A DNA stretch of 64,000 bases from positions 1 through 64,000 of the forward strand of contig JARWMV010000240.1 of NCBI GenBank assembly GCA_030998015.1. Reading direction: 5' to 3'. The position numbers and the translations under genes were made by a program. This DNA is from Ceratorhiza oryzae-sativae (Eukaryota > Basidiomycota > Agaricomycetes > Cantharellales > Ceratobasidiaceae). Positions 2,312 through 51,006 of this stretch are shown here, piece by piece (positions within the stretch are counted from its first letter, which is position 1; each line of letters opens with the position of its first letter). Below the pieces are notes generated by a model. The model saw only the letters and a program-made list of their open reading frames with translations, ran no database searches and had not been told where the DNA came from.

Positions 2312-3617
2312 TCTTATGGATCACTAACATTTTTCTATTATTTTAGTCTGCTCTGCCAACCTCAAGCGATGCCTCTGTAATTTTTCTTGAAATTAAATGA
2401 ATTTGTATGCATTTGAAATTGTACTATTTGTGTTCCATTAAATAGTACAAAATCTCCTCTTTCAATGCATATTTTATTGTGATTTTATCTTAAGAACTCA
2501 GAGAGATATAGAGGTTGCAATATTTCCTCTTATCAGGAGATATTGATTACAACGTTGCATCACTCATATCTTGGCAACTGCTTATGCTATCAAAGTGATC
2601 TTATGCTCTATCAATAGCTAATCTTTGGCAGTATCTGCTGCCTGAAGATTGTCACGATCCACCAGATCCTTGTGCCGGAATGGCCCAAAGATCCTTAGAA
2701 TCTTACTGGACCATCAATCAAGATCTAATGACTCCAGTGAGTCAGGGGAGCCTTCCAAATTGATCCAGAAGCTTCTTTGACTCACTTTATGACTCAATGA
2801 GATGTAGCCTCCATTCATTACATGTATATACTATGATAATATGATCTACAAGCCAATAGCAGGTCTCAGATGCATCAATGCCTTCAATCCACACCCTGTC
2901 TTTACTCTTTTATCCTATACTGGGCTAGGGTGTACCCCAAGTATAGCAGTACCCTCTTTTGATGATCACACTGGCATGCATGTATCTATTTGTCTCTGGA
3001 ATGCCCTCCTCAGGGTATAAAAGGACCTCCTCTGAGGCCCTTCCAGACAACCCTCCTCTACTCAACCCAGACTGGTTATTGGTTTCTTTTTCTCTTTCTA
3101 TTTTTCTATTGTCTGTGTGTGATTTATTATATAACTAGTACTGAGGAATAAAGTACCATATTAGTTATATATGGTCTGATTCATTGTATCTTATATACAG
3201 AGATATATAAGGATACAATATTGCCTGATTGAGTGTGACATTAAGTACCAGCTATAAGAGGAAATCTAAGTACCTGTAGCTGAGGAAGTACATGCATTAG
3301 GCAGCCCAACATCTATCCTATAAGCTATTGCTTAAGTCTAGCATTAAGATTAGTATCAGTTAGTCCAAGTGACTAGGGCTGAACTACATTTAAGATATCT
3401 AAGGGAACCTGACTGTAGTAGTCTTGCTCTTTATACCTATAAATTAGTCAGTTTACACTGTGAAAGATTAAGACTACCTTGAGTGTTACTTGATCACATT
3501 GCAACTACTTTGAGCCTTCTTACTCTAGTCTAAGAAGTAATGAGTACAATTAGAGTATACTAACATATCTACATTTGCTTAAGCTCTAGATATTCAAGTG
3601 TACCCTGACCTGTAACA
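2312..3617 (+). repeat. S1 solo LTR (1306 bp) in X1 pol, target duplication atatt
   Basis: It starts at a mutated TGTTATGG (now TCTTATGG) and ends CCTGACCTGTAACA. The 5-bp duplication atatt flanks it (2307-2311 and 3618-3622). Removing it joins X1 pol to the arrangement seen uninterrupted in X2 near 33855. A TATAAAAGG promoter motif near 3016 sets the plus orientation. No internal element sequence is present, so it is a solo LTR. Confidence 0.93.
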
Positions 3618-4119
3618 ATATTGGTGAGTTGAATTTCATGTCCTTTCCATCCCAATCAATGTCAGGGTTATGGAATTTGAGCCATGACATGCCCAGGACT
3701 AAATCATTTTTGCCAATGTTCACAATGTAAGCACTGAGAATTTCTTGGTGCTCCTGAATGCACAACTCAAAGGTGCAATAGTGGGTCACAGACCCTGAGT
3801 TGATCTCCCTTCCATTGATTACTTGTAGGTTTTTTGGCGTTTTTAGGGAGACAGTAGGGATATGATATTGTTTAACAAGGTCTTCATGGATAAATATTGA
3901 TGTGGCCCCTGAATCAATCATGGCCCATCCATTGAATTTTTTCATATTATATGCAGACTTGTGTTTGAGGGTTATGTGCAGTGGGAATGCATGAAAGAAA
4001 AACTGAAGTTGTGATTGGTTTCCTAACAACATACATTCTATTTCCATATTTTTATTTTCATTCTGCGCATTTTGTAACATAGTGCCCAAGACCACCCCCC
4101 TGGCACAGTTTGAGCACAT
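3618..4119 (-). pseudogene. X1 retroviral-type aspartic protease
   Basis: The open frame from 4119 encodes a pepsin-like retroelement protease with the active-site triad in AMIDSGATSIFIHEDLV and a downstream ILSAYIVNIGKNDLVLGMSWL flap and C-terminal segment. It overlaps the end of gag by about 80 nt in the -1 frame. X2 has the same frame relation, so pro-pol was probably expressed by -1 frameshifting. The open frame runs into the S1 LTR at 3617, which separates it from RT. Confidence 0.87.
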
Positions 4120-5504
4120 TCTTTTACTGACTCATTGTTGGTTGTTTCTACATCCTCCACAACTGCTTTGTAACCTGACATCTTGGCTGAAGGGCACTTA
4201 GTGGCAATATGACCACATCCTCCACAGTTATAGCAGGTATTTGTTCCTTTCCCTTTTCCTGCACTATCCAGGTCCATTGCATTGGGATCCTTTGCCTTGG
4301 GGGCTGCCAGTGGGTGATTGTCCTTCTTTATGTCCTTGAAGGATTCTTGTACATTGGAATTGCTACCATCATAGCAAACAGTGGGAACAGTGAAGCCCTT
4401 GGCATTGGGCCCAATGGCCACAATTTTGCCCTTGACTGCCCTGCTGTCCTTGATCTTGTATATCCACTCCCCATTCTTGAATTTCTCTTTTTGGGGATTG
4501 CTTTGGGAGATAGTTGTTGGCCTGCTGGGTGAGGCATTGTTGCTGTTGGACTTGTTACCCCCATGGGATGTCCTTTTGCTACCAAATGAAATGAGGTGGC
4601 AGTTGATCTCCAGGGCTTGCTGAGTGAGCTGGGCAAAGGTTTTGGTGTGGGGGTCATAATTTTGGGCCACCATGCTGTCTGTTATGTCTGATGATAGACC
4701 ATCATAAAACTGGTCACACATGGCTGCATCATTGTAGTTGAGCCCTGTTGAATATAAATTGAATAGGGTGAGGTAATCCTGAACTGTCTTGGATTGTTTC
4801 AGTTTCCGCCACTTGTTGCAGTTATTTTTGGTGCAGTTCAGGTCCCCATAACAGGTGGTAAACTCCTGCCAAAACAGGTTGGCATCATGAAGCCATGGGA
4901 TTGCAGTTCCAGGGTTTAAAATTTCAAATTCCTCATATGAGTTAACCCATTCAGCAGCAGATCCTTTGAGGTAGGACATAATGAAGGCAACCACCTGGTC
5001 AGCAGAGTGCCCACTCATATTTGTATTGATATATTGCACACATGCAATCCTGAATGAGATGGTGTCTTCATGCTTTGTGCCATCAAATTTTTGGGGAGCA
5101 GCCATCTTAACTTTTGCAGTTGATCTGCTAGAGGGAGTGGCGGCTGCTGGTTGTGGCTGAGTTGTGCTTGAGGAAGGTTGTACTTGGGCAATGCTGGTGC
5201 CACCCAAGGTGTGGATTTGCACTTTGATGCACATGATGGTGGTTTGAAGGATCACTAACATGCTGACTAGGTTGTTAACATTGGTGGCCAGCCTGGCCAT
5301 GTCAGCATCTATCTTTGCTTGGTTAGTTGTGAGCTTTGCCTTGAGCAAGTCTGTGTAGGTTTTGTTGTTATGTTCAACATCCCCAATATCATTTTGGAGG
5401 TTGTTGGTTTGTTCTTGCAGTTCATCCATTGACTGAAGCATGTAGACCACTTTGTCTCCATCAGACATATTTGCCCAAGCGGGGGCAGGAGTTGGCGATG
5501 CCAT
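4038..5504 (-). CDS. X1 Gag protein
   Basis: A 488-residue open frame from the ATG at 5504. The N-terminal third is coiled-coil-like and Q/N rich. The middle is a Ty3-type capsid region (YLKGSAAEWVNSYEEF, FKNCYGDLN-like and VQDYLTLFNLYSTGL stretches). Near the C-terminus lies a CCHC zinc knuckle, CYNCGGCGHIATKC, which would bind element RNA. It would form the virus-like particle. This is the only long intact frame in X1. The homologous X2 gag has stops and is interrupted twice. Confidence 0.88.
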   Translation of the reverse strand: MASPTPAPAWANMSDGDKVVYMLQSMDELQEQTNNLQNDIGDVEHNNKTYTDLLKAKLTTNQAKIDADMARLATNVNNLVSMLVILQTTIMCIKVQIHTLGGTSIAQVQPSSSTTQPQPAAATPSSRSTAKVKMAAPQKFDGTKHEDTISFRIACVQYINTNMSGHSADQVVAFIMSYLKGSAAEWVNSYEEFEILNPGTAIPWLHDANLFWQEFTTCYGDLNCTKNNCNKWRKLKQSKTVQDYLTLFNLYSTGLNYNDAAMCDQFYDGLSSDITDSMVAQNYDPHTKTFAQLTQQALEINCHLISFGSKRTSHGGNKSNSNNASPSRPTTISQSNPQKEKFKNGEWIYKIKDSRAVKGKIVAIGPNAKGFTVPTVCYDGSNSNVQESFKDIKKDNHPLAAPKAKDPNAMDLDSAGKGKGTNTCYNCGGCGHIATKCPSAKMSGYKAVVEDVETTNNESVKECAQTVPGGWSWALCYKMRRMKIKIWK

Positions 5505-5882
5505 TTCAAAAAGGACTCAGATGGATTCTAGAGGTGACAGAGACGATAAGGAAGTACAGGAAATTGAGAGTTATTTTGATAGTAGACAATTTCTATTCCT
5601 CACACAAGTCTATAAATTTTGAAGTTTTCAATTCCCCCAAACCTCAACCATGTGTTGTCCAAATCCCAACTTTTGGTGTCCTGACAACAATATGGGCGTT
5701 CCACCCTTTTCAGTTTAATTTGGTCCTGAAGGAGGGCTTCCTTGGGGAGAATTGACTTGGGCTGCTGGAAGGGGTGCTTCTTCCTGAATTGGCAAGCCTG
5801 TGCCACTTAAAAAGGTAGGATGAGGGAGGTCTGACAGCATTGAGAAGACAGGGGGGGTGTACTCATGGGGTGCAGTTGTTTC
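5505..5882. other. X1 spacer between extra ORF and gag
   Basis: About 380 bp with no convincing coding frame. The same spacer recurs in X2 (37596-37976), so it is part of the element. Apart from a pyrimidine-rich stretch, nothing specific is visible. Confidence 0.5.
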
Positions 5883-6468
5883 TCAGACTATTGCTTCTAG
5901 TCTGAGGTGGTCTTGGAGGAGGGATAGATAGTCCTCCTGATGTTCATGCAAACGCTCAGTTAGGTATGCACAGTGGGCCTCGGCTTTGTGAAAATTTTCA
6001 CAAGTTTCTTTGTACTTATTTCGGTAATAATGATACCTGTCCTGGAAGTTTTCAATGGTGTTTAACAGGTGATGAAGAAGTTGTTGGCCAAGGTTCTCCA
6101 GCTTATAGCTGGTTGCAGGGGATGGTGTAGTAGTATAAAAATTTGTCCTTTTTAGGACAGTAGGGGCAGCGTGCAGGGAAGGTGGCTCCGTTTGCTTGGT
6201 GGCAAATTTTGCACTCAGGGGCACCCAGCTTGGTAATGAAGGCTTGTTGGGCTTGTCCAACTTTCTGGGGGCAGACTTTGACAATTATTACTTGGTTAAA
6301 ATTGATGTGCCTGGCCTCTTCAAGGATATCTTCAACCAAATTGAGGGTGAAGCAATGGATAGACAGGTGTCCAAACCACCTACACAAATGGCAGCACTGG
6401 TCTTCTGTAAAAGGTTGTGCCACTTGAGGGCCATGCATTCCGTCAGAGACATACTCAAGCAAGAGCAA
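5883..6468 (-). pseudogene. X1 extra ORF upstream of gag: zinc-knuckle plus coiled-coil protein in two overlapping frames
   Basis: Frame a (6468-6103) has a knuckle-like CHLCRWFGHLSIHC and a second Cys cluster, CKICHQANGATFPARCPYC. Frame b (6284-5883) has a helical, coiled-coil-like region rich in heptads and E/H/L residues. Frame b is +1 relative to a. X2 has the same two frames, in the same relation and overlapping at the same place (38517-38197 and 38354-37977). It may be one protein made by frameshifting or splicing, or two proteins. The position before gag is not a standard Ty3/gypsy slot. No function is assigned. Confidence 0.6.
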
Positions 6469-6830
6469 GATAAAAAGAAAAATAGACCCTTTCCCAAGTC
6501 TATTGGAATAGGAAGGTGACCACTGTTGCTCAACTACTTAAGGGCAATGAGCAACCCCACCTCTTGTTGATGAAAGAGATTAGAGAACTGAAGCTTGTTA
6601 CAATGTGTGAGGGACCCAACCTTTGGTCAGTGAGCAGCCACGTCTGTGAAGACCAGTAGCACTTCAACTGATATAGGTATGCAAGGTTTCACAGAGGCAC
6701 ATATAGGGCAACAATGTCTCATGGCTGTGGATAGGTGGAGTGGGATTGGGGAAGGCAATGGGGAGTTATCTCAAGACAATGCCAATGGTGTTCCAGACAT
6801 ATCCCAGATGACACTGAGACTTACAATTGA

Positions 6831-6844
6831 CAAGAACTTGACCT
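6831..6844 (-). promoter_or_regulatory. X1 self-priming primer-binding site
   Basis: CAAGAACTTGACCT lies 2 nt from the 5' LTR. Its exact 14-nt reverse complement, AGGTCAAGTTCTTG, is inside the LTR at 6914-6927, just downstream of the minus-strand TATATAA. A transcript 5' end could therefore anneal here. No tRNA-like TGG start was seen. Confidence 0.65.
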
Positions 6845-6846
6845 AA

Positions 6847-7222
6847 TGTCAACAATAACAAGTCAGGCAACAAGGAAAATAGTAAGAAAAGAAAAGAACT
6901 TGTATTTGATGAGAGGTCAAGTTCTTGAGGAGTCCTCTGCAAACTTGACCTGGTTTATATACATAGTACAAGCCACATCATAACAAACAAGTCTGTACAG
7001 TGAGTCACAACTGATAAGAGATAGAAGCAGTAGAAGCAACTGCGGAACTGTGGAATTTCACATTGGAGTTGAAATACATCTTGGTTATCAGTCTGGAACA
7101 TCCCCTGAATCACATGACACAGATATACCATAAAAGGCAAGTATGTTTTGAAGATGATCTCATAAAATGTAATAAATCAAGGAAATATTGTAGAGTGGAT
7201 ATATGCATGTCAGTTTGTGACA
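6847..7222 (-). repeat. X1 5' LTR (376 bp)
   Basis: It begins TGTCAACAATAACAAGTC and ends GTTTGTGACA, and it matches the LTRs of X2. It contains the minus-strand TATATAA and the primer complement. It abuts a Y-family LTR fragment on the right, showing that X1 landed in that LTR. Confidence 0.88.
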
Positions 7223-7393
7223 CCACAAGCACATAAGTGCATACAGTATCAAGCCACAAGACAGTAGACACACATAAGGCCTCAGGCCCAGACATGCCAT
7301 GCATCAGCAGTAGCCAGGACATAGCCCAGACCCAGTAATGGCATTAGCCACTTGTAAAGCAAAGTCCAACAACTGCTTTCAGAGGTTGTGACA
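7223..7393 (-). repeat. Y-family LTR fragment, inverted
   Basis: The reverse complement aligns throughout with the first about 170 bp of the complete Y LTR at 44201-44924, starting TGTCACAACCTCTGAAAGC. It is fused directly to truncated Y integrase. Because Y is coded on the minus strand, a normal 3' LTR would have the opposite orientation, so this junction is rearranged. Confidence 0.7.
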
Positions 7394-7701
7394 TGTAATG
7401 CCTCAGATATCCTTCAACAACTTGGTTTGCCCTTTCAGATTGGCCATTGGTTTGGGGGCAGTATGCTGTTGAGTATGAAGGTTTGATATCCAGGCATTTG
7501 TAGAGATGTCATAGGAATTGTGAGGCAAAGTTCAGTCCTGGATCTGAGATGGTTTTCCTTGGTAGACTGTGTAACTTCCACATGTAAGTGATGAATAGGT
7601 TTGCACAGTCCTTGGCTGATGCTTCTGACTGGATGGGGACAAAGTGGACCATTTTCATCAGATGGTCTACTATTGTGAATATTGCATCAAAACACTCTGA
7701 T
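7394..7701 (-). pseudogene. Element Y integrase, distal piece
   Basis: The minus strand encodes an integrase core (FDAIFTIVDHLMKMVHFVP, TISDPGLNFASQFL, then NQVVEGYLRHY) related to X. It is cut on the right by R1. The reading frame resumes at 18194 on the far side of R1. On the left it fuses to an LTR fragment, so the integrase C-terminus is deleted. Confidence 0.82.
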
Positions 7702-8484
7702 TGTCGTGACCCTCTGGAGGCTCCCTTGTGGAGCACTTAAGTAGTGGCTGCATTGACGGTTTGGTATTTATGCAGGATGTATTGAGCGTTCTAGTTACAG
7801 TGTTTGCTATGGTCTATGGTGGTTGACAAGATAAAGCAAGCTGAGGCGTCCAGTCTTGCTTTATCCTCCTTATATATACCTGTGGCTGCGGTGGCTGCGG
7901 ACGTATTATCTAAGCACACTCCGCAGTAGGTGTAGGTTATGTACAGTACTATGGGTTAGGTAATTGTTTGTCTTAAGTTTGTGCAGCTCCAAATCTTATA
8001 GAGCCACGCGAGGTCCGAGGGGTAGGCGCTGAGGTCACGTGATCCTGCCGTAAGCGCCAAGATCACGTGACAACTCGCTCCTTGCTCCAAGTAACATGGG
8101 AGAGAAATGCTGGAGCGAGTTCAGGGTAACAACTGTAAGCGCTGAGGTCACGTGACCCTTTGGTAAGCGCCAGGATCACGTGACAACTCACTCCTCGCTC
8201 CAAGTAACAAGGGAGAGAAATGCTGGAGCGAGTTCAGGGTAACCACCGTAGGCGCTGAGGTCACGTGATCATGCTGTAAGCGCCAAGGTCACGTGATAAC
8301 TCGCTCCTCGCTCCAAGTAACATGGGAGAGAAATGCTGGAGCGAGTTCAGGGGAACCACCGTAAGCGCTGGCTAAGCGCCGAGGTCACGTGACCTTGTTT
8401 ATGGCTTGTTCCGCTTAGGAAAAATGCCATAAATCTGTAGAAATATTTGGTTGTTTTGTTATGTCCGTTTGACGGGTCATAACA
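7702..8484 (-). repeat. R1 3' LTR (783 bp)
   Basis: Ends TGTCGTGACC...GGTCATAACA. It has the same ends as the LTR at 17525-18193 but is 114 bp longer, because it holds three instead of two copies of an internal 113-bp repeat. It borders a polypurine tract on the coding side, so it is the 3' LTR. Confidence 0.93.
8022..8360. repeat. Three tandem 113-bp repeats in the R1 LTR
   Basis: Each unit starts GTA(A/G)GCGCTGAGGTCACGTGA and holds two CACGTGA palindromic boxes plus GGGAGAGAAATGCTGGAGCGAG. The 5' LTR has two units (17844-18069). CACGTG is an E-box-type motif; a role in promoter control is inference only. Confidence 0.85.
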
Positions 8485-8498
8485 TTATCCCCCCCTTT
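8485..8498 (-). promoter_or_regulatory. R1 polypurine tract
   Basis: TTATCCCCCCCTTT reads AAAGGGGGGGATAA on the coding strand directly before the 3' LTR, the position where plus-strand DNA synthesis would be primed. R2 has the same tract at 20586. Confidence 0.75.
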
Positions 8499-8549
8499 GG
8501 ACATGTCTTGGGGGACCTCGAGACATGGTTTAGTTCCTTATGCAAAAGG

Positions 8550-8676
8550 AATCTCATGCACCAAGGAGGTTAAGGGCGCTGGACTCGAACCGACGACCTT
8601 TCGGCTGATTCAGTATCGTTCGATGAGGTCAGGCTGAGTCAGGCTAGACCCCTTAACCTCTCCGTTACATGAGATT
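8550..8676 (-). repeat. Foldback with tRNA-like 3' half beside the polypurine tract
   Basis: Outer arms AATCTCATG (8550-8558) and CATGAGATT (8668-8676) and inner arms GAGGTTAAGGG (8566-8576) and CCCTTAACCTC (8650-8660) are exactly complementary. On the minus strand GGTTCGAGTCC (8591-8581) is a perfect pol III B-box placed as in a tRNA T-arm. A believable anticodon stem cannot be drawn and the T-stem has a mismatch, so it is tRNA-like rather than a tRNA. R2 keeps the whole foldback (20651-20777). Confidence 0.55.
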
Positions 8677-8793
8677 GTTTTTCTTTTCTTTGTTGTGGAG
8701 GTTATTTAGGGGTGAGGATTTGTCTGCTTCTTCTCAGAAAGCCCCAACTGTTTGGATGGGCATAGCAGAAGTTGTACAGTACCATAAATTATT

Positions 8794-10123
8794 CTAAGGG
8801 AATACAAAGAATGGCTTTCCTCCTGCATACACCCATTCCACATTTCTTGATACCCATAAGTCCCCTTCTTCCCCCTCTATGTCTGACCAACATTTCATGA
8901 TTGCCGACCGGCTATTTCCCAGAATGACTGTTGGCCGTACCTTCATCGATTTCACGTGCGCGTACCTGCCTGTGAAGTCCACCTCGTACTGGCTCAGGGC
9001 CTTGAGCGAGTACTTCCCGTTCGACTGGACCATGTCATCCAGGATCCAAATGTCGGCATCTTCCGACAAGTTGCCCATATTCCACACATTGCACATCTGG
9101 CTGTGGCAGCCCTTGGATCGTGCATATGCCATTTTCCCTGTTCCAGTTTCTCCTTCTATCACCAGGATGCGATGGCGCCCCCCTCTTCCCTTCTTCTCAA
9201 CCTCCTTGGCAAACCATCTGTCTGCTCGGTCGATGTGCTCCTGGTCTTCCAGGACCTCTAACTCCACAGGGATTGCAGGCATGCAACCCCGGTCTTCCTT
9301 GTATGTGTACTCGGCATACGCTTGTACCGAGTTCCACGTCGTCACCATCTGGAGGGGGCGGAGGCGCTTGAACACCTGGTAGTACTCCTGTTTTGTTGCT
9401 GAGGCAACAATCTCCGTCCCATCCTCCAAGTCTGCCTCCATCCTTGACCTTTTTCTGCCCTTTCCCTTTACCAAAATCTCCTCCAACCTTTCCAAGGTCA
9501 GGTCCCCTGCCATCAGGTCCTCTATCTCCTTGCCATTAGCTCCAACGTCCTTCCAGAGATAGTTGAAGGCCTCCCTTGCTGGGTTTCCTCCTGGTCCGTC
9601 CTTGAGGTCCTTCAGCAGGATGTTGGGGTGTTGCCCCTCGAAGTCCCAGAACCGGGTGTTCTGGGTGTTCCAGCCGCCCTTCTGCTCCTGACTGATGGAG
9701 AGGGCATGGACATGGAGGGGCCGGGCCGGGTCGTAGTTCGGTTCCTCGGGGTTGTGGCGTTCCACCACTGCCAAAGTCGCCCAATGATTTGGCCGTTGGC
9801 GGCAGAACGCCTCGTATCGGGCGACGAGCCCACTTGAGGGCTGATCGCGTAGCTTCGACCAGGTCAGCAGCACCACCCTGGTCTGGATGCGGAACCGAGG
9901 GGCCGGCACGGTTTCAGTCAGCTCTTCGGACCCTTGATCCGTCAGCGTAGGCTGCATAGAAGCAGGCAAGGGGGCTTGGCTTGATACCGAGGGCGCTGGC
10001 GATGGCGACGCCGACCTCTGCCCTTTGCTTGATCCGCTTGGCTGGGGTGTTGCCGCGTTCGATCCATTTCCGCTTAGCATCGTTTACAGTTTTAGAGGTA
10101 TTTGGGGACTGGGAAGAGAGCAT
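8794..10123 (-). CDS. CRESS-DNA virus-type replication-associated protein (Rep) carried by R1, two exons
   Basis: Proposed exons are 10123-9932 and 9882-8794 with a 49-nt intron, giving 426 aa. R2 keeps the same exon 1 length (192 nt) and frame. HUH endonuclease motif I is LLTWSK (about 69-74), motif II LHVHAL (120-125) and motif III YLWKD (172-176, candidate nicking Tyr172). A GRS-like FEGQHPNI lies between II and III, as in gemini-/genomovirus-type Reps. A superfamily 3 helicase follows: Walker A GETGTGKM (308-315), Walker B DIWILDDM (near 341-348) and motif C VILGNS (383-388). Walker A ends in Met where Ser/Thr is usual, in both copies. An alternative unspliced start at 10080 exists but is less conserved. 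Cellular role unknown. Confidence 0.88.
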
Positions 10124-10622
10124 GAGAGTGCAGGTTATCTCGGGCCTTGTGCTTGTCTATATAAGCTGCAAGGTCTGTTTTGATTGTCACATGACTCCAT
10201 CTTGCATTTGTTGTGATCACATGACCTTGTTTCGGTGATGACGCATCTCCGAGGGGTGCCCTCCCATCCGTTCCTCCACGTCGGCCTTGGTCCTCGCTAC
10301 GCTTGGGGCCTCCGCTCCCCCACTTCGGTTGGTGCCCCCTCTCCGACCCCTCCGGTAGTTAGGGGATAGCGTATATTCACGTGACTAGGCTAGGTCATGT
10401 GATTCCTGTGCTTTGTTGTTTGTTTTCTGGCAGGTGGTCACATGACTAGGCTAGGTCATGTGATTCCCATGCTTTGTTGTTTGTTTTCTGGCAGATGGTC
10501 ACGTGTCTGTTGGTGTCACCTGACCAGTCCTTGTTTTGATGTTTGTGCAAGTTATTGTGTTGCACCGTGATTTTTTAATGTTTGTGGTTTTGTTGTTTTC
10601 CTTCCTCATCCTGTTCTTTACT
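10124..10622. promoter_or_regulatory. Divergent spacer between Rep and the antisense gene, with repeated hairpins
   Basis: About 500 bp with no credible gene; a short hydrophobic extension from an ATG at 10539 is out of frame in R2. TCACGTGACTAGGCTAGGTC... at 10377-10402 and TCACATGACTAGGCTAGGTC... at 10438-10463 form 9-bp stems around the 8-nt loop TAGGCTAG, the second one perfect. They lie in a 61-bp tandem repeat. R2 has one perfect hairpin (22460-22485). It probably holds both promoters. An origin role is speculation. Confidence 0.5.
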
Positions 10623-11164
10623 ATGTGTGTTATTTCCCTTAACTACAATCCCCTTGACTGCACCTGCTGGTCTCTCCCTGAGGGGGAGTACTGCGCCTAC
10701 TGTGATGCTGTGTGCAACGCCTCCCTTGAAGATTTCTATCAAGGTGTTGGGGACTGGTTCTTCTGTGGGGTGCCAGGTATGTGTGTTCGTTCTTCGTCAT
10801 TCTCACGTAGCTAACTTGTTCTGTAGAAGAGCGCATCCTCCTTGATGGTCGGGCCCATGAGGCCACCCTTGAGCGTGTCTGGGCGCTCGTTGATCAGGAG
10901 TACAAGTCCTTTGAGGAGCGGTCTCACCAGGCTGCTCTTGCTGAATTCTTTGAGGAGGGCTCTGCTCCCTTGTTTGATGAGGCTTCGCCCTTTGTAGCGT
11001 CTGGTTCTGGGTGTTTCCAGAACTACATGGCTGACTTCCCAGGGGGGGAGGCCCCCTGGCTGTTGCCTGAGAACCGGGCCAGTGGTTCTGCGGCCCGTAC
11101 TACTAGGAAGGATAAGAAGGCAAAAAAACCCTATGCCCAGCCCCTCAAGGGCAAGAGAAAATAG
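10623..11164 (+). CDS. R-element antisense gene: Cys-rich protein with basic tail, two exons, unknown function
   Basis: Exons 10623-10776 and 10827-11164 (GTATGT...CTGTAG intron of 50 nt) give 163 aa. R2 has the same exon 1 length, intron place and frame (22644-22797, 22848-23176). The N-terminus is a Cys cluster (CTCWSLPEGEYCAYCDAVC) that could bind metal, the middle is acidic and helical (RVWALVDQEYKSFEER), a GSGCFQNYMADFPGGEAPW stretch follows, and the tail is Lys-rich (KDKKAKKPYAQPLKGKRK), possibly a nuclear or nucleic-acid-binding tail. It is encoded opposite to the retroelement, so its intron survives in genomic RNA. I do not recognise the family. Confidence 0.7.
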
Positions 11165-11245
11165 AAAACATTTTGAAATGTATTATTGTATGATAGTGAA
11201 AATTATTCTTAAGACATTCCAAAAAACATGTGATAGGCCCGATAG

Positions 11246-12063
11246 TCACAAGGGCTCCGTGTCCAGCAGGGGCACTTCCTCCAAGGCGCCCGCCAGCTCA
11301 TCCTCCCATTTGGCCCAGTCCGTTTGGACTCCCTCTTGGGCTGGGTCCGGGGTTGGTTCCTTCATCGTTACTCTCAGCTCCTCCTCCTTCACCACCAGGG
11401 ACTCCAGGCTTGCCGTGAGGCTCGACATATCCGTATCATAACTGTGCAGGTTTGGGCGTACCTTCACCCAGTTACGGAAGTCGGCCAAGTTTGCTTCCTT
11501 CAACCTGATGGCAGTAAACATTTCATCAGTGGTAGTGGCCTCAAGCAGTCCCACATACGGTGCCGCCGGTGCCAGCTTCCACTGCTCCAACAGGACCCTG
11601 GCCCGCTGCTCTACTTCCCAATCTGCATTAGTCGTTCGGAGGCCCCCGCCTCCCTCTGTTCCTTGGCGGCATAGACCACCCCTGTCACCGTTGCCCCTAC
11701 TATGTTGTCGATTACATACATTGGCATGCGCAACATTGCGCTCTTGGTTGTCGGCCTTCAGACTCCCTGCCACCGCAGTATTCCTAACTTGGGGTCCTTG
11801 TAAAGGCTGTCGTTAAGCCAGTTCCTCTCATCCCTATCCTTCTTTGGGATGTACACCAAGTTGGCCCCTGGCAGTAAGCTCTCCGCAATCATTTGGTGTT
11901 CCTCCACACTCGGGGTGTACTGGCCTGGCTTCCTGCGGTTTTCCTTGCCTGGGTAGGGAGCCGGCCGTCTTGTGGTGGGTGCCAACCAGACGCGGGTGAC
12001 CTGATTATTAACCAGGGGCGCAAAATGGCCTGAGGGAAACGTGGGGCGAGTGGCAAAAGGCAT
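11246..12063 (-). pseudogene. R-element third extra gene, about 270 aa, unknown; disrupted in R1
   Basis: The minus-strand frame starts at 12063 and is conserved in R2 (24077-23190) over most of its length: RRPAPYPGKENRRKPGQY, LLPGANLVYIPKKDRDERNW, LEATTTDEMFTAIRLKEANL and an acidic C-terminus, WAKWEDELAGALEEVPLL. R1 has one in-frame TGA and a later frameshift. R2 has only one in-frame TGA at another place, so the ancestor was open. The two proteins differ at many positions yet keep blocks, more than CpG decay alone would give. No known domain is recognised. Confidence 0.6.
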
Positions 12064-12147
12064 AGTGAAATTGGGTTTATGTGTTGTGGTGCAAGTGTGG
12101 TGGTAGAGTGGACTCTGGCCTTTCTTGGGTATCCTGGATGGCTCCTT

Positions 12148-13061
12148 TTAAAGCTTTCCAGATCCTCGTTTGGTTCTCTTTGGCCTGCCTTTCAAGTCAC
12201 CTGAGTGCTGACTTGTCTTGACTGGCATTGGTGCGTCTGGTAAGCACCTTTGCAAGTCATTTAGAACCTCTTTCATGTCAGCAAACCTGCTGGCACGTTC
12301 CATTGTGTCCTCTATTGGGTCGTAGCCCTTCCATCTGATTTGGTAAAACAGCTCGCCATTCCGCCATTCATAATTTGCAATGTGGTCCACCTTGTATTCC
12401 TCCTCTCCTTTTTCCGTTATGATTGGTGGTGGTTTGGCCTGCCTTCTTTGGAAGTCTTTATCTTCTGTGAATGGCAGAGGAGATTTACATGGAATACATT
12501 GTGTACACGTATGGTTTTAGGTAGGTCCAGGCGATATGCATGGGATGAGATCTTTTCTGTGATTTCAAAGGGCCCCCCTTTTCGGTTGTCCAGTTTCTTG
12601 GAGGGTCTCTTGGACAAGAGGTTTGTTAGGAGCAGCCAAACCTTGTCTCCTACCTTGAATTCCCTCCCTTTCTTTTCCATTTGTTGGTGTAATTCCATTG
12701 AGGCTCTTGCCTCATCCCATACCTTTTCCATTTGATTACGCATGTTGTCTGCAGCAGGTGCCTCAGATGGTTCTTCTCCCTCTTGGACAACCCATCTTGG
12801 GTTTTTTCCATATACTGTTTCAAATGGGGTTTGTCCTGTTGTAGCATTTACGTGGTTGTTATGGCAGAATTCGGCAATGGGTAACCATTTTACCCAATCA
12901 TCTTGTCTATAATTGCAGAAGGTTCTTAAGAACCCTTCTACCCATTGATTTGTCCTTTCCGACAGACCATCTGTTTCTGGATGGAAAGCAGTGGAGAATC
13001 TGGGCTTTGTCCCAATTCCTTTGTATAGGGCTTTTAGGAATTGGCTGTTAAAGGTTGGCCC
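12148..13061 (-). pseudogene. R1 integrase C-terminal part and chromodomain
   Basis: After an in-frame TGA at the SD-stop-GPTF position, the core continues (FSTAFHPETDGLSERTNQWVEG), then a GPY/F-type region (KVGDKVWLLLTNLL, KGGPFEI, HNVFHVNLL) and, after a one-base frameshift, a chromodomain (DHIANYEWRNGELFYQIRWKGY). Chromodomains of Ty3/gypsy chromoviruses guide insertion to modified histones. R2 encodes the same region in one frame from 24760. Confidence 0.85.
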
Positions 13062-14039
13062 TCAGTCTGAGACAGTGGTTTCTGGGGTCCTGTGATGTCT
13101 CCATACTTCCCTTATGAATATTTCTGCCAGTTCTTCTGCATTGGTGCTCTCCAGACATGGTACAAAATGGGCCTGCCAGGAGAAGCGATCTACAACTGTC
13201 AAGATACTGTCGTACCCCTTTGAGACAGGTAATTTGACAATAAAATCATATGCGACGTCTGCCCATGGTTTCCATGGGATTGGTAAGGACTTCAGGGGAG
13301 TGCCTTGTTTGTGTCCTTTGCTTCTTTGACACGTTTCACAAGATTCCACGTATCGGTTTACTTGGGCCTTCATTCCTGGCCAATAGTAATCCCTTGATAG
13401 TAATTCTAGTGTTCGGGCTTGTCCCTGATGACCTGCCACTGGGGCGTCATGGCACTCCTCAAGGAGACTCAACCTCAAGTCCTTGTCATCCGGGATGTAG
13501 AGCCTATCATCATACCTTAATAGGCCCTCCTTCATTTCATACCGTCTAAATTCCTTCTGTACTGAGGGCAGTAGTTGTTCTTTATTTGCCACACTCAGCC
13601 TTAAGGATCTGATAGATTCATCTTCTTCCTGAGCTTCTTTAAGCTCTTCCCAGAAATTCCCCTGTACTTCTGCCATGAAACCTATGAACCTTTCTTCTGG
13701 AATCATGATCTGTGGTTCCATAGGGGTATCCCCATGGTCGCTCCTTCTGGAAAGGGCATCTGGCTTCTGTGAGAGTTTCCCTGGTCTATACACAATCTGA
13801 AAATTGAAGGGTGCCAGAGTGAGATACCATCTGGCATGCCTTCTATTCCACATCTGGGCATTTTGCCAGTACTGGAGGTTCCTATGGTCAGAGTATATCA
13901 CAATAGGTTCCTCTGTCCCTTCTAAGTATAACCTCCAGTGCTCTAAGGACCTAACAATTGCAAGCAACTCCTTGTCATAGGTGTCATAATTTTTCTCTGG
14001 TGGGGTGAAGCTCTTCGATAGGAAGGCAATTGGATGCAA
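13062..14039 (-). pseudogene. R1 RNase H and integrase N-terminal half
   Basis: RNase H region with YSDHRNLQYWQ, the integrase zinc-binding HHCC (HDAPVAGHQGQ, then CETCQRSKGHKQG) and the first part of the catalytic core with FIVKLPVSKGYDSILTVVDRFS. It ends at a TGA after the second catalytic Asp (TTVSD). R2 has the same TGA. It is separated from RT by a one-base loss in a run of seven C near 14070-14076; R2 keeps the longer sequence. Confidence 0.88.
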
Positions 14040-14062
14040 TCGGTTGTCATCACCCTTTTGGC

Positions 14063-15667
14063 TTAGTACCCCCCCATGGCCACTCCTGAGGCATCTGTTT
14101 CCAGTATGTATGGCCTGTTTGGGTTTGGGTGGATCAGGACCAGTTCTCTTGCTACTGCTTCTTTGATAGCTTCAAATGCTTCCTGTTGTTTTCTTTCCCA
14201 CAGGAATTTGACATCTTTTTGGGTGAGATCTGTGAGGGGTTTGGCTAAGGTACTAAACTTCTCTATCCACCTTCTATAGAACCCCACGAAGCCTAGGAAG
14301 GCTTGGACTTCTTTTACTGTGTTAGGTTCTGGCCATTCTAGAACTGCCTTTACCTTTTCCTTTTCCATCGATATCCCTTCTGGGGATATGACAATTCCAA
14401 TGAAGCTTACCTCCTTCACAAAGAACTGACACTTGTGTGGTTTGAGGAAGAGGTGGTTTTCCCTCATTCTTCTTAACACTTCCCTGACATGTTGTACGTG
14501 TTCTTCCCTGTTTCTGGAAAACACTAGTACATCGTCCATGTAGATTACCACATAATCGTCTATTATATCACGGAACTTTTCCATCATGAACCTGGTAAAG
14601 GTTCTTGGTCCTTCTTTTACTCCGAATGGCATGACCAAGCATTCAAACTGGCCTTCTCCTGTCCTGAAAGCTGTTTTCCATTCGTCTCCCTCTTTTACCC
14701 TGATGTTGTTGAACCCCCATCGAACATCCATTTTTGAATAGATGGTTGCATCCTTCAGTCTCTCAATCAATTCTATTTGGATTGGAAGTGGAAACCTGTC
14801 TGGCTTGGTGATGTCATTCATCTTACGGTAGTCGACTACCAACCTAAGCCCTCCATCTGCTTTGTTCACATAGAAACAGGGTGCAGCTACAACTGACTGG
14901 CTGGGCCTTATTTTCCCGTTTCTTAGTTCCTCCTCTAGGTACTCCCTGAGCGCCTTTGTTTCTGCTGGCGACATACTGTACCTCTTTGCAGGCTTTGGCA
15001 GCTCCGCTCCCTCGATCAGGTCCATTTTGAAGTCTAGGTTACCTTGGTGGGGTGGAAGTTCTCGGAAACCTTCTTCCCCAAATAGGTCTTCAAAATCCCT
15101 AAATTCTTCTGGGATTTGTAGGCTTTCACTTGCTGCCCTTGCCTTGATTTCGTCTGGGTATGAGATGGTAAGGTCTTTCCAATCTATGATAGGTTCTGCT
15201 TCTTCAAGCCATTCTTTCCCTAGGACTATGTCTGTGTCACCTAGGGTCATTACATAAAGGGAGCATTTTAGTGTCTTCCCTTCCACTTCGATGTTTAGTT
15301 CTGCCCTTTCTTCTATGGCATCCTTGATTTCATTTCCATCAATGGCCACAATTGATTTCTTGTGTTTGAGGGGAGTGGTTGGAATCCCTTTTTCCCTTGA
15401 ATAGGCCTTATCGATGAAGTTGGTTGAAGATCCTGAGTCAATCAGCGTCTTAGCTGGTTCCATGATTCCCTCTACTGTAGTGTATATTATTGATTGATTA
15501 CTAGACTTCTTGAGGTAACATACATCTGCGTAGGGGTTATATTGGGGTCCTCCAACATGGAAGTGGTAGGACCAATTAGTTTTCCGACTCAGAGCTGCTT
15601 TCTTCCTCAACTTGTCTGCTGGCCTTCCCTTGTATCTTAGCTTTCGTAGGTCCACTGGCCTTGGCAC
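14063..15667 (-). CDS. R1 protease and reverse transcriptase
   Basis: A 534-residue open frame. Aspartic protease with TLIDSGSSTNFIDKAYS near the N-terminus, then RT with LREYLEEELRNGKIRPSQS, LRLVVDYRKMNDIT, KMDVRWGFNNIRV, the intact YMDDVLVFSRN active site and the start of RNase H (ILETDASGVAMGG). It copies element RNA into cDNA. Unlike R2, X1 and X2, all catalytic residues are kept. It ends prematurely at the one-base deletion described for the RNase H piece. Confidence 0.92.
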   Translation of the reverse strand: MPRPVDLRKLRYKGRPADKLRKKAALSRKTNWSYHFHVGGPQYNPYADVCYLKKSSNQSIIYTTVEGIMEPAKTLIDSGSSTNFIDKAYSREKGIPTTPLKHKKSIVAIDGNEIKDAIEERAELNIEVEGKTLKCSLYVMTLGDTDIVLGKEWLEEAEPIIDWKDLTISYPDEIKARAASESLQIPEEFRDFEDLFGEEGFRELPPHQGNLDFKMDLIEGAELPKPAKRYSMSPAETKALREYLEEELRNGKIRPSQSVVAAPCFYVNKADGGLRLVVDYRKMNDITKPDRFPLPIQIELIERLKDATIYSKMDVRWGFNNIRVKEGDEWKTAFRTGEGQFECLVMPFGVKEGPRTFTRFMMEKFRDIIDDYVVIYMDDVLVFSRNREEHVQHVREVLRRMRENHLFLKPHKCQFFVKEVSFIGIVISPEGISMEKEKVKAVLEWPEPNTVKEVQAFLGFVGFYRRWIEKFSTLAKPLTDLTQKDVKFLWERKQQEAFEAIKEAVARELVLIHPNPNRPYILETDASGVAMGGY

Positions 15668-17403
15668 TCCTTCAGGACATGCCCTGATTTACCGCATTTG
15701 ATACAGAGTCCTTCTTTCCTTCGCCTGTCCTTTTCACTGTTTGGTATCCTTACCATGTTGTTGGTTTGGGTATTCCCCTGTTTGCTGCTGGTCCCTAAAG
15801 GCTTGTTCCCCCCTTGTTTGTATTTTGCTGGTGCCCAGGTTGAATTTGATGAGTTGCTGGTCCTTGTATTCATTTTCTGGTTCGCAAACTGCATGTTCCA
15901 TTTTGCAGGCAAAGTCAATTAATTGATCTAAGGTATATGATGGACCTTCAGCCTCATTTGCCAGTACTTCAATCCTTAAGATCTCTTGTCGTACTTCGGG
16001 TTTTAACCCTTCCCTGAATTGGTCCTTGAGGGCTTCCTGGTTCCAGTCTACCTCTTGGATCAGGATCCGGAATTGGGTAGCATAATCCAATGCACTCTTG
16101 GTCTGTGTTAATTTCCTTAGTTTCCGGATGGTCTTTTCCTTTATGACTGGGTCATTAAAAGCATCCAGGAATCCCTTCCTGAAATCCTTCCAGGATGCAA
16201 GAATACCTGTGTGTTCGCCTGCTAATAGTTTCCGGCGGTAAGGTTGTGCCCAGTTTGCTGCTTCCCCATCCTCCATGTTCATTAGCACAGCAGATATCTT
16301 TTTTCGGTCATCAAAGGCTGATTCGTCATAGTCAGCAAAGAAAAGTTCCATGCTGATTATGAAGTTCTCTGCTTCCTTCCCCTTTTTCCCATTAAATTTG
16401 CTGGGTCTCCCTAGTCTCGCCTCCTTAGGAGTGTGGTTTGCAGCAAGGGTAGGTTGGTTTGCTTGGGATGGAGGTTCTGTTCGGGTCTTATTGTGGACTC
16501 AGCCTGGAAGGTTCTTCCCAGAAAGGGTGTTCATACTGGGGAGGCTGAGGGGGATCGTGAGGGGCTTCCTATGACCACCCTAGTTCTTCCCCTGGTTTCT
16601 TCTGTCCTTTCCCTTGGCCTTCCTGCTTCAGTTGTTTTCCGGAGCTCATTTCCTAGATCGGTTACCCGTTGTTCTAGTGCGATTAGGATCTCCCCTGTGT
16701 TTTCGGTTTTCTTCTCTAAGCTTTCGAGCTTTCGCTCTTGCATTCCCAGTACCCGGTTTATTTCCATGGAGATGTCCTTTAATTCTTTTATCAGGTTCCC
16801 CATTTCTGCTTTTAGGTCGTCCTGGTTCTTTGCCACATAGAGGACATTTTTGTTGGATGTTTCCATTGACCTTACCATCCAGTCCACGTTTCCTTCTTGT
16901 CAGGTTAGTGATATTTGACACTGATTTATACCCGTGATTGCCTTTTCTAGTTCCCTATGATTATTGTCTCTAAGTTCCTTGAGCCCCCCCTGATGGCCGT
17001 GGCAATGGTGTGAATAGGGTTGGCAGTGGCTATGGTCCGGGACCTGGCTGGGGTTGTGTCCTTGCCTCTTCCGCCAAGGCCGTGCCTTGTTCGTATATGG
17101 TTCGGGTCATATCTTCTACCTCATCCCTCTCTGGATTTGAGATATCTTCTGGGTCTGGATTTATCAGGTGAATTGGCGGTTGAGGGCTGCGGAGTGGTAT
17201 TCCCCCTATTTCCCCTCCCAGGATGGGGGCCCAGTGGGGTTGGGTTGAGCCACTGGTTGTGGGTTTTGTGGCAACCCCCCTGGCATTCCTTGGAGGGTCT
17301 CATCTGGGTTACCTTCAGCCTCTGGGGAAGCAATGGGTTTGGGTGATTGTGGCCTACTATTTGCCACTCTGCTTTGAGATCGAGTTTGTGGTCTCTGTGA
17401 CAT
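15637..17403 (-). pseudogene. R1 Gag, frameshifted
   Basis: The start codon at 17403 (MSQRPQTRSQSRVA) begins a Pro/Arg-rich N-terminus. Frame breaks near 17200, 16900 and 16500 separate a coiled-coil region (KELKDISMEINRVLGMQER), a retrotransposon gag/capsid domain (KDFRKGFLDAFNDPVIKEK) and, after a further break near 15900, the zinc knuckle CIKCGKSGHVLKEC. R2 has a longer frame over the N-terminal region. Several breaks sit in C-runs, so assembly error is possible for some. Confidence 0.85.
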
Positions 17404-17510
17404 AGTTTCTTTATGTTCTCTTATGTATCACAGGAGTTAGCTGGTTTTCTCGTGTACTCAGCCCTTAGTATCTGTGTAGTATACTTATGTTCGCCACTAG
17501 TTAAGTTAAG

Positions 17511-17522
17511 AGCTTGCTTTAT
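17511..17522 (-). promoter_or_regulatory. R1 self-priming primer-binding site
   Basis: AGCTTGCTTTAT lies 2 nt from the 5' LTR. Its exact reverse complement ATAAAGCAAGCT is at 17653-17664 in the LTR, about 36 nt past the upstream edge of the minus-strand TATATATAAG box (17700-17692), where the transcript should start. Confidence 0.65.
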
Positions 17523-17524
17523 AA

Positions 17525-18193
17525 TGTCGTGACCCTCTGGAGGCTCCCTTGTGGAGCACTTAAGTAGTGGCTGCGTTGACGGTTTGGTGCTATGCAGTAT
17601 GTATTGAGTGTTCTAGTTACAGTGTTTGCTATGGTCTATGGTGGTTGACAAGATAAAGCAAGCTGAGGCGTCCAGTCTTGCTTTATCCTCCTTATATATA
17701 CCTGTGGCTGCAGTGGCTGCGGACGTATTATCTAAGCACACTCCGCAGTAGGTGTAGGTTATGTACAGTACTATGGGTTAGGTAATTGTTTGTCTTAAGT
17801 TTGTGTGGCTCCAAATCTTATAGAGCCGCGTGAGGTCCGAGGGGTAGGCGCTGAGGTCATGTGATCCTGCTGTAAGCGCCAAGATCACGTGACAACTCAC
17901 TCCTCGCTCCAAGTAACATGGGAGAGAAATGCTGGAGCGAGTTCAGGGTAACCACTGTAGGCGCTGAGGTCACGTGATCATGCTGTAGGTGCCAAGGTCA
18001 CGTGATAACTCGCTCCTTGCTCCAAGTAACATGGGAGAGAAATGCTGGAGTGAGTTCAGGGTAACCACTGTAAGCGCCGGCTAAGCGCCGAGGTCACGTG
18101 ACCTTGTTTATGGCTTGTTCCGCTTAGGAAAAATGCCATAAATCTGTAGAAATATTTGGTTGTTTTGTTATGTCCGTTTGACAGGTCATAACA
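17525..18193 (-). repeat. R1 5' LTR (669 bp)
   Basis: Same ends as the 3' LTR but with two 113-bp units. It holds the minus-strand TATA box, predicted transcript start and primer complement. Its outer end borders the ctgat target duplication. Confidence 0.93.
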
Positions 18194-18491
18194 CTGATGG
18201 TGGTAGTCTTGTGATCACATCATAGGTGATTTCCTCCCATGGTTTCTCAGGTGCCAGAATGGGGTTCAGTAGTCCCAGGGGCAGTGCATTGCTGTGTTTG
18301 TTCCATATGCACAATTCACAGTGAGCTACATATTCATTGACTGTTTTCTTCATAGACAACCAGGTGAATTTCCTACTGACTAGTTCCATGGTCCTGGGTT
18401 GTCCTGGGTGGCCTGCTGCTGGGTTGCCATGGTGGCTTTCTAGTACAAGTTTACAGAGTTTCTTGTTGTGTGGTACATCTATGTGGCCTTT
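18194..18491 (-). pseudogene. Element Y integrase zinc-binding piece
   Basis: It encodes the integrase HHCC region (HHGNPAAGHPGQPRTMEL, then CELCIWNKHSN) and PWEEITYDVITRLPPS, which continues into the fragment at 7701 once R1 is removed. It is cut on the right by the S1 LTR. Confidence 0.82.
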
Positions 18492-20777: not shown

Positions 20778-20958
20778 GTTTTTCTTTTCTTTGTTGTGGA
20801 GGTTATTTGGGGGTGAGGAGTTGTCTGCCTCTTCTCAGAATGCCCCAACTGTTTGGATGGGCATAGCAGAAGTTGTACAATAAAGTAAATTATTCTAAGG
20901 GAATACAAAGAATGGCTTTCCTCCTGAGTACACCCATTCTACATTTCTTGATACCCAA

Positions 20959-22224
20959 TCAGTCCCCTTCTTCCCCCTCTATGTCTGACCAACACTTCAT
21001 GATTGCCAACCAGCTATTTCCCAGAATAACTGTCAGTTGTACCTTCATCAATTTCATGTGTGTGTACCTGCCTGTGAAGTCCACCTTGTACTGGCTCAGG
21101 GCCTTGAGCAAGTACTTCCCATTTGACTGGACCATGTTGTCCAGGATCCAAATGTCAGCATCTTCTGACAAGTTGCCCACATTCCACACATTGCACATCC
21201 AGCTGTGGCAGCCCTTGGAGTGTGCATATGCCATTTTCCCTGTTCCAGTTTCTCCTTCTATCACCAGGATGCAATGGTGCACCCCTCTTCCCCTCTTCTT
21301 GACCTCCTTGGCAAACCATCTGTCTGCTTGGTCAATGTGCTCCCAGTCTTCCAGGACCTCTAACTCCACAGGGATTGCAGGCATGCAACCCTGGTCTTCC
21401 TTGTATGTGTACTTGGCATATGCTTGTACCAAGTTCCATGTCATCACCATCTGGAGGGGGCAGAGGCACTTGAATGCCTGGTAGTACTCCTGTTTTGTTG
21501 CCAAGGTGACAATCTCCATCCCATCCTCCAAGTCTGCCTCCATCCTTGACTGTTTTCCACCCTTTCCCTTCACCAATATCTCCTCCAACCTTTCCAAGGT
21601 CAGGTCCCCTGCCATCAAATCCTCTATCTCCTCACCATTAGCTCTGATGTCCTTCCAGAGATAGTTGAAGGCATCCCTTGCTGGGTTACCTCCTGGCCTG
21701 TCCTTGAGGTCTTTGGGCTGTATGTTGGGGTGTTGCCCCTCAAAGTCCCAGAACCCCACATTCTGGGTGTTCCACCTGCCCTTCTGTTCCTGACTGATGG
21801 AGAGGGCATGGTCATGCAGGGGCCAGGTCAGGTTGTAGTTCAGCTCCTCCAGGTTGTGCTGTTCAACCACAGCTAAGGTTGCCCAGTGATTGGGCTGGTG
21901 GCAGCAGAACACCTTGTATTGGGCAGCAAGCCCACTTGAGGGCTGATTGCATAGCTTCAACCAGGTCAGCAGCACCACCCTGGTCTGGACACAGAATTGG
22001 GGGCCAGTGCAGTTTTGGTAGGCTCTTCAGACCTGTGATCTGTCAGTGTAAGCTGCGTAGAAGCAGGTGAGGGGGCTCAGCTTGATTCCAAGGGTGCCAG
22101 CAATGGTGATGCCAACCTCTGCCCTGTGCTTGATTTGTTTGGCTGGGGTGTTCCCATGTTCAAGCCATCTTTGCTTAGCATTGTTGGTGTTTTTAGAGGT
22201 AGATGCATCTTGTGGGGAGGGCAT
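20959..22224 (-). pseudogene. R2 copy of the CRESS-type Rep, C-terminus lost by frameshift
   Basis: Exon 1 is 22224-22033 (192 nt, as in R1) and exon 2 starts at 21984 after a 48-nt intron. Motif I (LLTWLK), motif II (LHDHAL), motif III (YLWKD), Walker A (GETGTGKM) and motif C (VILGNS) remain and the frame is open for almost the whole length despite heavy CpG decay. A one-base insertion near 20958 removes about the last 20 residues. Walker B has DIWILDNM, with one Asp changed. Confidence 0.82.
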
Positions 22225-30520: not shown

Positions 30521-30882
30521 TGTTGACAACAACAAGTCAGGCAACAAGGAAAATGATGAGAAAAGAACTTGTATTCAACAAGAGGTCAAGTTCTTGAGGA
30601 GTCCTCTGCAAACTTGACCTGGTTTATATACATGATATGAGCCACATTGTAACAAACAAGTCCATGCAGTGAGTCATGACTGATAAGAGATAGAAGCAAC
30701 TGTGGAGCTGCAGAATTTCACATCAGAGTTGAAATACATCTTGGTTATTGGTCCAGAACATCCCCTGAATCACATGACACAGATATACCATAAAAGGCAA
30801 GTATGTTTTGAAGATGATCTCATAAAATGTAATAAATTGAGGAAATATTGTAGAGTGGATATATGCATGTCAGTTTGTGACA
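30521..30882 (-). repeat. X2 3' LTR (362 bp)
   Basis: TGTTGACAACAACAAGTCAG...GTTTGTGACA, bordered on the coding side by the polypurine tract. Confidence 0.9.
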
Positions 30883-30893
30883 CTTCCCCCCTT
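30883..30893 (-). promoter_or_regulatory. X2 polypurine tract
   Basis: CTTCCCCCCTT reads AAGGGGGGAAG on the coding strand, adjacent to the 3' LTR. Confidence 0.75.
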
Positions 30894-30989
30894 CAAGGTA
30901 CAGGGGTCATGGGGTGCCTTTGGATGTGACTTGACATAGTCAACCATGAGTTCTGGTGTGTTCACCAGGTCATTGTAAGTTAACCATTG

Positions 30990-33290: not shown

Positions 33291-33292
33291 GA

Positions 33293-50835: not shown

Positions 50836-51006
50836 AGCTGAGCATAATAGAACATACGAAAGCTGAGGCACATTAACATGACACACGCAATCCCGTTGGA
50901 CGCACCAGAAAGGCTGGGTGTCGGTCTGGACTGGGAGGTTCGACTCCTATTCCCGAGTCCCGTTCGCCTGGTGCGGGCCTGCGACATCCCCGGCAGAGGA
51001 ACCCAT

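Follow-up and report, generated by a model that had tools for sequence, protein, structure and literature searches.

In the 64,000-nucleotide stretch of the Ceratorhiza oryzae-sativae genome analysed here (the window; the start of contig JARWMV010000240.1), a rolling-circle replication protein (Rep) gene, encoding a predicted HUH endonuclease and superfamily 3 (SF3)-type helicase, lies between the chromodomain and the 3′ long terminal repeat (LTR) of a Ty3/gypsy chromovirus, R1. Rep occupies a fixed slot in the R1 family, has been amplified by retrotransposition, is under purifying selection and retains its predicted catalytic residues. We propose, with about even confidence, that a Ty3/gypsy chromovirus lineage gained a geminivirus/genomovirus-type Rep at this position and keeps it working on its own DNA.

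Rep in the R1 retrotransposon family

The gag, protease, reverse transcriptase (RT), RNase H and integrase regions of R1 are consecutive and a chromodomain tail comes last, which is the Ty3/gypsy chromovirus order; the Chromo profile match comes from R2, a second element in the window (E 4.4e-6), the chromodomain-like tail of R1 being placed by sequence (Table 1). Downstream of pol follow gene X (sense), gene Y (antisense), Rep, a hairpin and the LTR. The two R1 LTRs (783 and 669 bp) are 94–95% identical over their aligned parts and differ in their number of 113-bp units; with a copy of the target site duplication (TSD) CTGAT on both sides, they place Rep inside the element, as claimed by an earlier note made on this DNA from sequence alone. 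Relatives of the target sequence at three loci (L094, L097 and L099, ~72% identical) run unbroken across the R1 insertion point, the halves overlapping by 4 bases. The second Rep copy that the earlier note had assigned to the same slot of R2 is also there, though broken across frames. The TSDs of R1 and R2 differ (CTGAT versus CCCAA), and the two are therefore separate insertions.

Searches of the genome (48.8 Mb) gave 99 matches for R1 Rep (98 of 254 candidates scored) and 120 for R2 Rep (119 of 221 candidates scored), which combine to at least 120 distinct loci on 72 contigs; the two copies previously described are thus present, within a far larger set. The count is a lower bound because a further full Rep, L103, is missing from both match lists. 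Twenty-nine of the 90 R1-Rep matches that span residues 1–428 are free of stops. The insertion context was read at the 30 best loci of the R1-Rep search (R1 included), with up to 1.5 kb on each side. At 30/30 loci Rep is followed by an R1-type 3′ LTR, always with the terminus ACA, and no two of the 30 flanks align in register when followed outward from there, i.e. there is no common integration point; Rep has therefore multiplied with the retrotransposon. The claim that the LTR lineage amplified together with Rep is borne out by this shared slot in separate insertions, and a single segmental duplication as the origin of R1 and R2, raised in the earlier note as the counter-explanation, is ruled out by their differing TSDs and unrelated flanks and finds no common integration point among the 30 loci. 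The distance from the Rep stop to the LTR end is 864–1204 bp (L001–L030), LTR length following the number of 113-bp units. Among six elements checked for TSDs, four have 5 bp (R1, R2, L005 and L006), L008 has none and the C19 element has a 15-bp direct repeat.

The family was also surveyed from its RT, with 81 of 1235 candidates scored and 89 matches, of which 8 short second pieces were removed to leave 81 loci. A listed Rep lies 3.8–6 kb downstream at 48/81 of these and 9.4–13 kb downstream at 13/81; seven of the latter were read, and all seven are interrupted before the Rep position, five by the other gypsy family of this window, one by a different gag-like open reading frame (ORF) and one by unrelated sequence after the start of X. 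The remaining 20/81 are without a listed Rep, and 10 of the 13 read hold Rep-homologous DNA (L035 and L100 in part only), while the other three have no Rep in the stretch read (L099, where the other gypsy family stands instead, L038 and L102). This survey led us to reject the idea that most of the RT family is without Rep. The earlier note had named family members lacking Rep as the finding that would tell against it; the sampled RT loci mostly carry Rep, and no Rep-less branch of the family emerged from this incomplete sampling.

The ratio of nonsynonymous to synonymous substitution rates (dN/dS) was estimated from 29 of the 30 loci (L016 was dropped for length), which were sorted into subfamily A (15 loci) and subfamily B (14 loci) according to their nucleotide identity with R1. 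The ratio is 0.42 among A copies and 0.24 among B copies, and 0.103 for the 210 A–B pairs, the pairs being non-independent and the within-group ratios inflated by copies that decayed after insertion. Between A and B, nucleotides 1–480 of Rep give a dS of 0.08 and a ratio of 0.53, i.e. a recent common 5′ part, whereas nucleotides 481–1284 (the 3′ 63%) give a dN of 0.046, a dS of 0.80 and a ratio of 0.057. The combination of a recent common 5′ part with deep 3′ divergence at this low ratio argues that Rep recombines as a module while being held under strong purifying selection. Likewise, the between-subfamily ratios (0.10, and 0.057 over the 3′ 63%) argue that Rep is a selected gene and not passive cargo; the earlier note had left "cargo or working part" undivided, and dN/dS favours the working part over cargo. 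Mosaic elements occur among L001–L030, with Rep type and upstream type exchanged and a switch near Rep nucleotide 480, e.g. L003 (Rep 96% with upstream 82%) and L011 (Rep 89% with upstream 95%).

Motifs, profile evidence and 5′ end of Rep

The 428-codon R1 frame is uninterrupted, and rolling-circle motifs I–III, the HPNI block, Walker A and B and motif C, as read from the R1 3′ region in the earlier note, were all found there, in the order LLTWS, LHVHA, HPNI, YLWKD, Walker A, WILDD, ILGNS. The HPNI block is a feature of Geminiviridae and Genomoviridae Reps. An alignment of 24 family proteins, some rows of which are partial or odd gene models, keeps the order LLTW/FLTW, HVH/HIH, HPNI, YLWK, GETGTGK-like, WILDD-like, ILGNS wherever a row is long enough to include these motifs. 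HUH Rep motifs are defined as UUTU (I), HUH (II) and YxxK with one tyrosine (III) (PMC6668415), and this pattern is present as LLTW, HVH/HIH and YLWK in 29/29 copies compared. Walker A, Walker B and motif C of SF3 helicases are also present in the family. Together with HPNI, the full YLWKD, Walker B and motif C are retained in all 29 copies, as are LLTW and HUH; Walker A ends in GKT in 28/29, two of the 28 having an internal change, and R1 Rep is the sole exception. The Walker A motif claimed for R1 exists, with a last residue that deviates from the 28 other copies.

The ordered full motif set appeared in 0 of 200,000 shuffles of the residues of R1 Rep, the spacing windows having been chosen with the protein in view. 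Motifs I–III alone appeared in 16 of 50,000 shuffles, none of which had HPN between II and III. The search against Pfam Rep profiles suggested in the earlier note gave a match with Gemini_AL1_M that is sub-threshold in 9/24 members, the best (P0009) having E 0.001 and 19.5 bits, under the cut-off of 24. Nine members were listed singly; in six of them Gemini_AL1_M matches over nearly the full profile, between the HUH region and the P-loop, and in three it does not match. The catalytic-domain profile Gemini_AL1 matches 1/24 members (E 0.23), and unrelated ATPase profiles score similarly weakly. The putative homology to viral Reps is based on the ordered motifs and the sub-threshold whole-domain Pfam match; the profile evidence is the weak point of the proposal.

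A single-sequence search found 50 Rep relatives and a profile search 70, with 37–83% identity to R1 Rep over the aligned part; the 70 comprise 42 Ceratobasidium proteins, all annotated as hypothetical, and 28 unnamed metagenome proteins. Taken alone, these relatives point to a Ceratobasidiaceae-like host. No named virus is among them, which is weak evidence since distant viral Reps would escape the word-based prefilter. There was no match to Rep in PHROGs; tblastn gave none in phages and three in plasmids, at E 9 only. No Rep relative was confirmed in IMG/VR, and scans of IMG/VR and bacterial genomes with short motif patterns produced no Rep-helicase among the matches checked in frame. PF00799 found nothing in the same genome, its controls being equally empty, and two weak PF08283 matches elsewhere in the genome (E 0.5 and 0.8) were set aside as spurious after the ORFs had been listed at one, L039.

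In the two-exon model of the earlier note, the upstream limit at 10123 is the ATG of a second, overlapping frame, a possible alternative spliced 5′ exon, whereas the ORF from 10080 requires no intron. The second frame overlaps the first Rep codons and is 40–48% identical to the N-termini of five Ceratobasidium AG-Ba gene models (P0010, P0013, P0020, P0026 and P0069). Within Rep nucleotides 61–180, 4.75 of the 9.0 A–B differences per pair, about half, fall on third positions of the second frame.

Proposed role of Rep and alternatives

Under the proposed scheme, a geminivirus/genomovirus-type Rep would have been acquired, possibly along with the divergent gene Y, and would be expressed from its own divergent promoter. 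Its substrate may be the element's own extrachromosomal DNA, either linear cDNA or LTR circles, where nicking at repeated palindromes and unwinding could produce extra DNA-level copies before integration or aid integration itself. The TCACRTGA sites common to the LTRs and the Rep–Y spacer are candidate sites of this action, or may reflect common regulation. The window contains 12 copies of TCACGTGA, versus 0.55 expected, all of them in the R1 LTRs and the Rep–Y spacer. When TCACATGA/TCATGTGA are included, the mean over the 30 loci is 5.2 palindromes in the LTR stretch, 5.6 in the 540-bp spacer and 0.47 in the 1287-bp Rep; TCACRTGA palindromes are present in the spacer at 29/30 loci, L028 having none. 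A host basic helix-loop-helix (bHLH) factor or an element protein could be their user. The best-supported step beyond anatomy is that the enzymatic residues of Rep are under selection, which favours action on DNA; we infer that Rep may nick and unwind the element's own DNA, or counter silencing.

Several results weigh against Rep being a viral-type enzyme at work on its carrier. No Rep profile scores above its curated Pfam cut-off in the Rep family, PDB sequence searches (single sequence and profile) gave chance-level matches only, AlphaFold2 models are poor (predicted local distance difference test, pLDDT, 36 for whole Rep from 24 sequences and 55 for the HUH crop from 29 sequences), and Foldseek with the low-confidence HUH-crop model found no match at E 0.001 or better. 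Furthermore, TCACGTGA is also a typical fungal bHLH (Cbf1-like) site, the canonical nonanucleotide NANTATTAC of the CRESS (circular Rep-encoding single-stranded DNA) origin stem-loop occurs nowhere inside R1 or R2, and there is no sign of rolling-circle arrays among the 120 loci. One same-strand Rep pair at element-length spacing was found among these loci (C20, 10.4 kb); a head-to-tail array was rejected there, as the junction, read on one side, is a full LTR followed directly by mid-gag and reads as one element inserted in another.

The main rival, which we regard as possible and clearly less probable, is counter-defence, in which Rep shields the element from silencing and its enzymatic action is minor for transposition. 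Captured viral helicases in retroelements have been proposed to have silencing or antiviral roles, and geminivirus Rep lowers plant DNA methylation, both being discussed in PMC6338049. The differences between the two LTRs of an element are also rich in transitions (26/32 in R1 and 35/36 in R2), as expected of methylated copies. However, none of the 29 copies has lost YLWKD, Walker B or motif C, a degree of conservation beyond the need of a pure suppressor. Rather unlikely in our judgement is a dual-mode lineage, a retroelement/CRESS chimera that would have absorbed a single-stranded DNA (ssDNA) replicon of Rep and Y and would combine reverse transcription with Rep-driven rolling-circle replication from the LTR palindromes.

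It is improbable that Rep and Y constitute a captured ssDNA replicon, of viral or plasmid type, that is still autonomous and replicates itself with the retrotransposon as a mere vehicle. The divergent two-gene layout of ~2.4 kb with a promoter-like spacer is like that of ambisense CRESS genomes, whereas the Y exon 2 query has no relative or Pfam match, the nonanucleotide is missing from both elements, and at all 30 loci read Rep is in an LTR context. A non-CRESS nuclease/ATPase with convergent motifs would account for the lack of above-threshold profiles and of structural or PDB support, and is nevertheless very improbable given the shuffle result for the ordered motif set and the nearly full-length Gemini_AL1_M match in 6/9 members listed singly. 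Least probable is passive cargo, trapped once and amplified along with the LTR element: the higher within-subfamily dN/dS and the stops in 61/90 full-span matches look like decaying insertions, but the between-subfamily ratio at nucleotides 481–1284 is hard to obtain without selection.

When Rep genes turn up in eukaryotic genomes, they are usually interpreted as relics of inserted viruses. In the R1 family, by contrast, an amplified LTR retrotransposon maintains Rep as one of its genes, with an HUH nuclease-helicase and an RT in one selfish unit, a sign that two contrasting ways of replicating may be combined in a single element. The family makes it possible to test whether retroelements can replicate by rolling circle, and bears on how ssDNA-virus genes become multi-copy and on the role of extra ORFs downstream of pol.

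Companion features and known systems

Table 1. Coordinates of R1, R2 and their features in the window, with the evidence for each
Feature	Position	Strand	Evidence
R1, Ty3/gypsy chromovirus with Rep	7702..18193	-	LTR pair, 5-bp TSD, gag/protease/RT/RNase H/integrase domains
TSD copy CTGAT (left)	7697..7701	.	flank comparison
TSD copy CTGAT (right)	18194..18198	.	flank comparison
R1 3′ LTR, 113-bp tandem units, seven TCACGTGA palindromes	7702..8484	-	LTR pair
Long conserved hairpin between Rep stop and 3′ LTR	8544..8682	-	folding z -5.2
Rep, HUH endonuclease and SF3-type helicase, 428 amino acids, open	8794..10080	-	ORF, motifs, Pfam, shuffles
Overlapping second frame, alternative 5′ end of some Rep gene models; stop in R1	9854..10123	-	identity to five gene models
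Divergent Rep–Y spacer, TCACRTGA palindromes, TATA-like stretch upstream of Rep	10081..10622	.	sequence scan
Gene Y predicted exon 1, antisense to retrotransposon	10623..10776	+	open frame then GT...AG
Gene Y predicted exon 2, basic C-terminus	10827..11164	+	open frame, substitution pattern
Gene X, downstream of pol; frame changes near 11758-11773 in R1; one open frame of 196 amino acids in R2	11246..12063	-	ORFs, substitution pattern
Integrase C-terminal SH3-like domain and chromodomain-like tail	12253..12743	-	SH3_Tf2-1 E 6.4e-20 (R1), tail located by sequence
RNase H and integrase zinc-binding region	13062..14039	-	Pfam
Protease, reverse transcriptase	14063..15667	-	Pfam RVT_1 E 7.6e-34, RVP_2 E 1.4e-9
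gag capsid	15734..16351	-	Pfam Retrotrans_gag, Ty3_capsid
R1 5′ LTR, four TCACGTGA palindromes	17525..18193	-	LTR pair
R2, second element, Rep in same slot, decayed; TSD CCCAA	19956..30178	-	LTRs, TSD
R2 Rep remnant: main open frame 20959-21978, C-terminal part in another frame	20898..21978	-	ORFs

Y exon 2 has an excess of substitutions at the third positions of its frame at 10921–11040 (116 versus 33 and 26), which is weak at 11041–11160 (170 versus 151 and 109). X, which in R2 lies at 23487–24077, shows ~70% nucleotide identity between some sublineages. Neither X nor Y has a significant Pfam match, and a protein-database search with the R2 ORF that contains Y exon 2 found no relative at E 10. 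The hairpin is kept in both Rep subfamilies and in R2 (nine copies aligned). It contains tRNA-like pieces (GGTTCGAGTCC) that neither Rfam (one chance-level match nearby) nor ARAGORN recognised; across the window ARAGORN found no tRNA, and Rfam nothing at gathering score.

A second gypsy family (3600–7700, 18194–18476 and 30521–35565) is the target of R1 and is itself inserted in other copies of the Rep element; in the 4.5-kb pieces read it showed no Rep. Elsewhere, 50850–60150 holds three tandem copies, 70–85% similar and spaced 3.7–4 kb apart, with ORFs of 328–350 amino acids. Just 3′ of the 5′ LTR (17495–17525), 12 nucleotides (8 in R2) are a perfect complement to an LTR stretch 36 bp downstream of where the TATA box starts, a candidate self-priming site like those of Tf1-type elements.

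R1 and R2 are like Tf1/sushi chromoviruses in their SH3_Tf2-1 integrase tail, chromodomain and candidate self-priming site. To our knowledge, the known Tf1/sushi chromoviruses are without Rep, X and Y. With Geminiviridae and Genomoviridae Reps the R1 family shares the succession UUTU, HUH, YxxK and SF3 helicase (PMC6668415); it differs in having no named virus among its 70 relatives and no canonical origin nonanucleotide.

Full-text searches of the open literature, judged mostly by title and start of abstract and with subscription papers and preprints outside their scope, brought up no description of a Rep-bearing LTR retrotransposon. An amplified geminivirus-type Rep resides in a terminal inverted repeat (TIR) transposon of Tuber melanosporum, and Reps also occur in Laccaria and ascomycetes (Liu et al., 2011; PMC3198968); that text uses neither of the words retrotransposon and LTR. 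The Tuber element is described there as having 37-bp TIRs, transposase ORFs, an interrupted Rep and no obvious TSD, whereas the R1 family has LTRs, RT, integrase, many open Reps and TSDs. Helitrons were excluded: their RepHel protein exceeds 1,500 amino acids (PMC6431247), and they have no LTRs, in contrast to a 428-residue Rep inside an LTR element with a TSD.

An extra ORF downstream of pol is shared with the bdelloid rotifer LTR elements Vesta and Juno, whose captured ORF3 is of DEDDy, GDSL or env type, and for which the authors reported no significant deviation from neutral evolution (Rodriguez et al., 2017; PMC5408684); their text nowhere uses the terms rolling, Rep protein, ssDNA or geminivirus. 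The Terminons of bdelloid rotifers, giant Penelope-like elements, are similar to the R1 family in being retroelements with an accessory rolling-circle Rep ORF, and circular intermediates have been suggested for them (Arkhipova et al., 2019; PMC6431247). Terminons are Penelope-like, telomeric and without integrase; in contrast, the R1 family is a compact LTR chromovirus.
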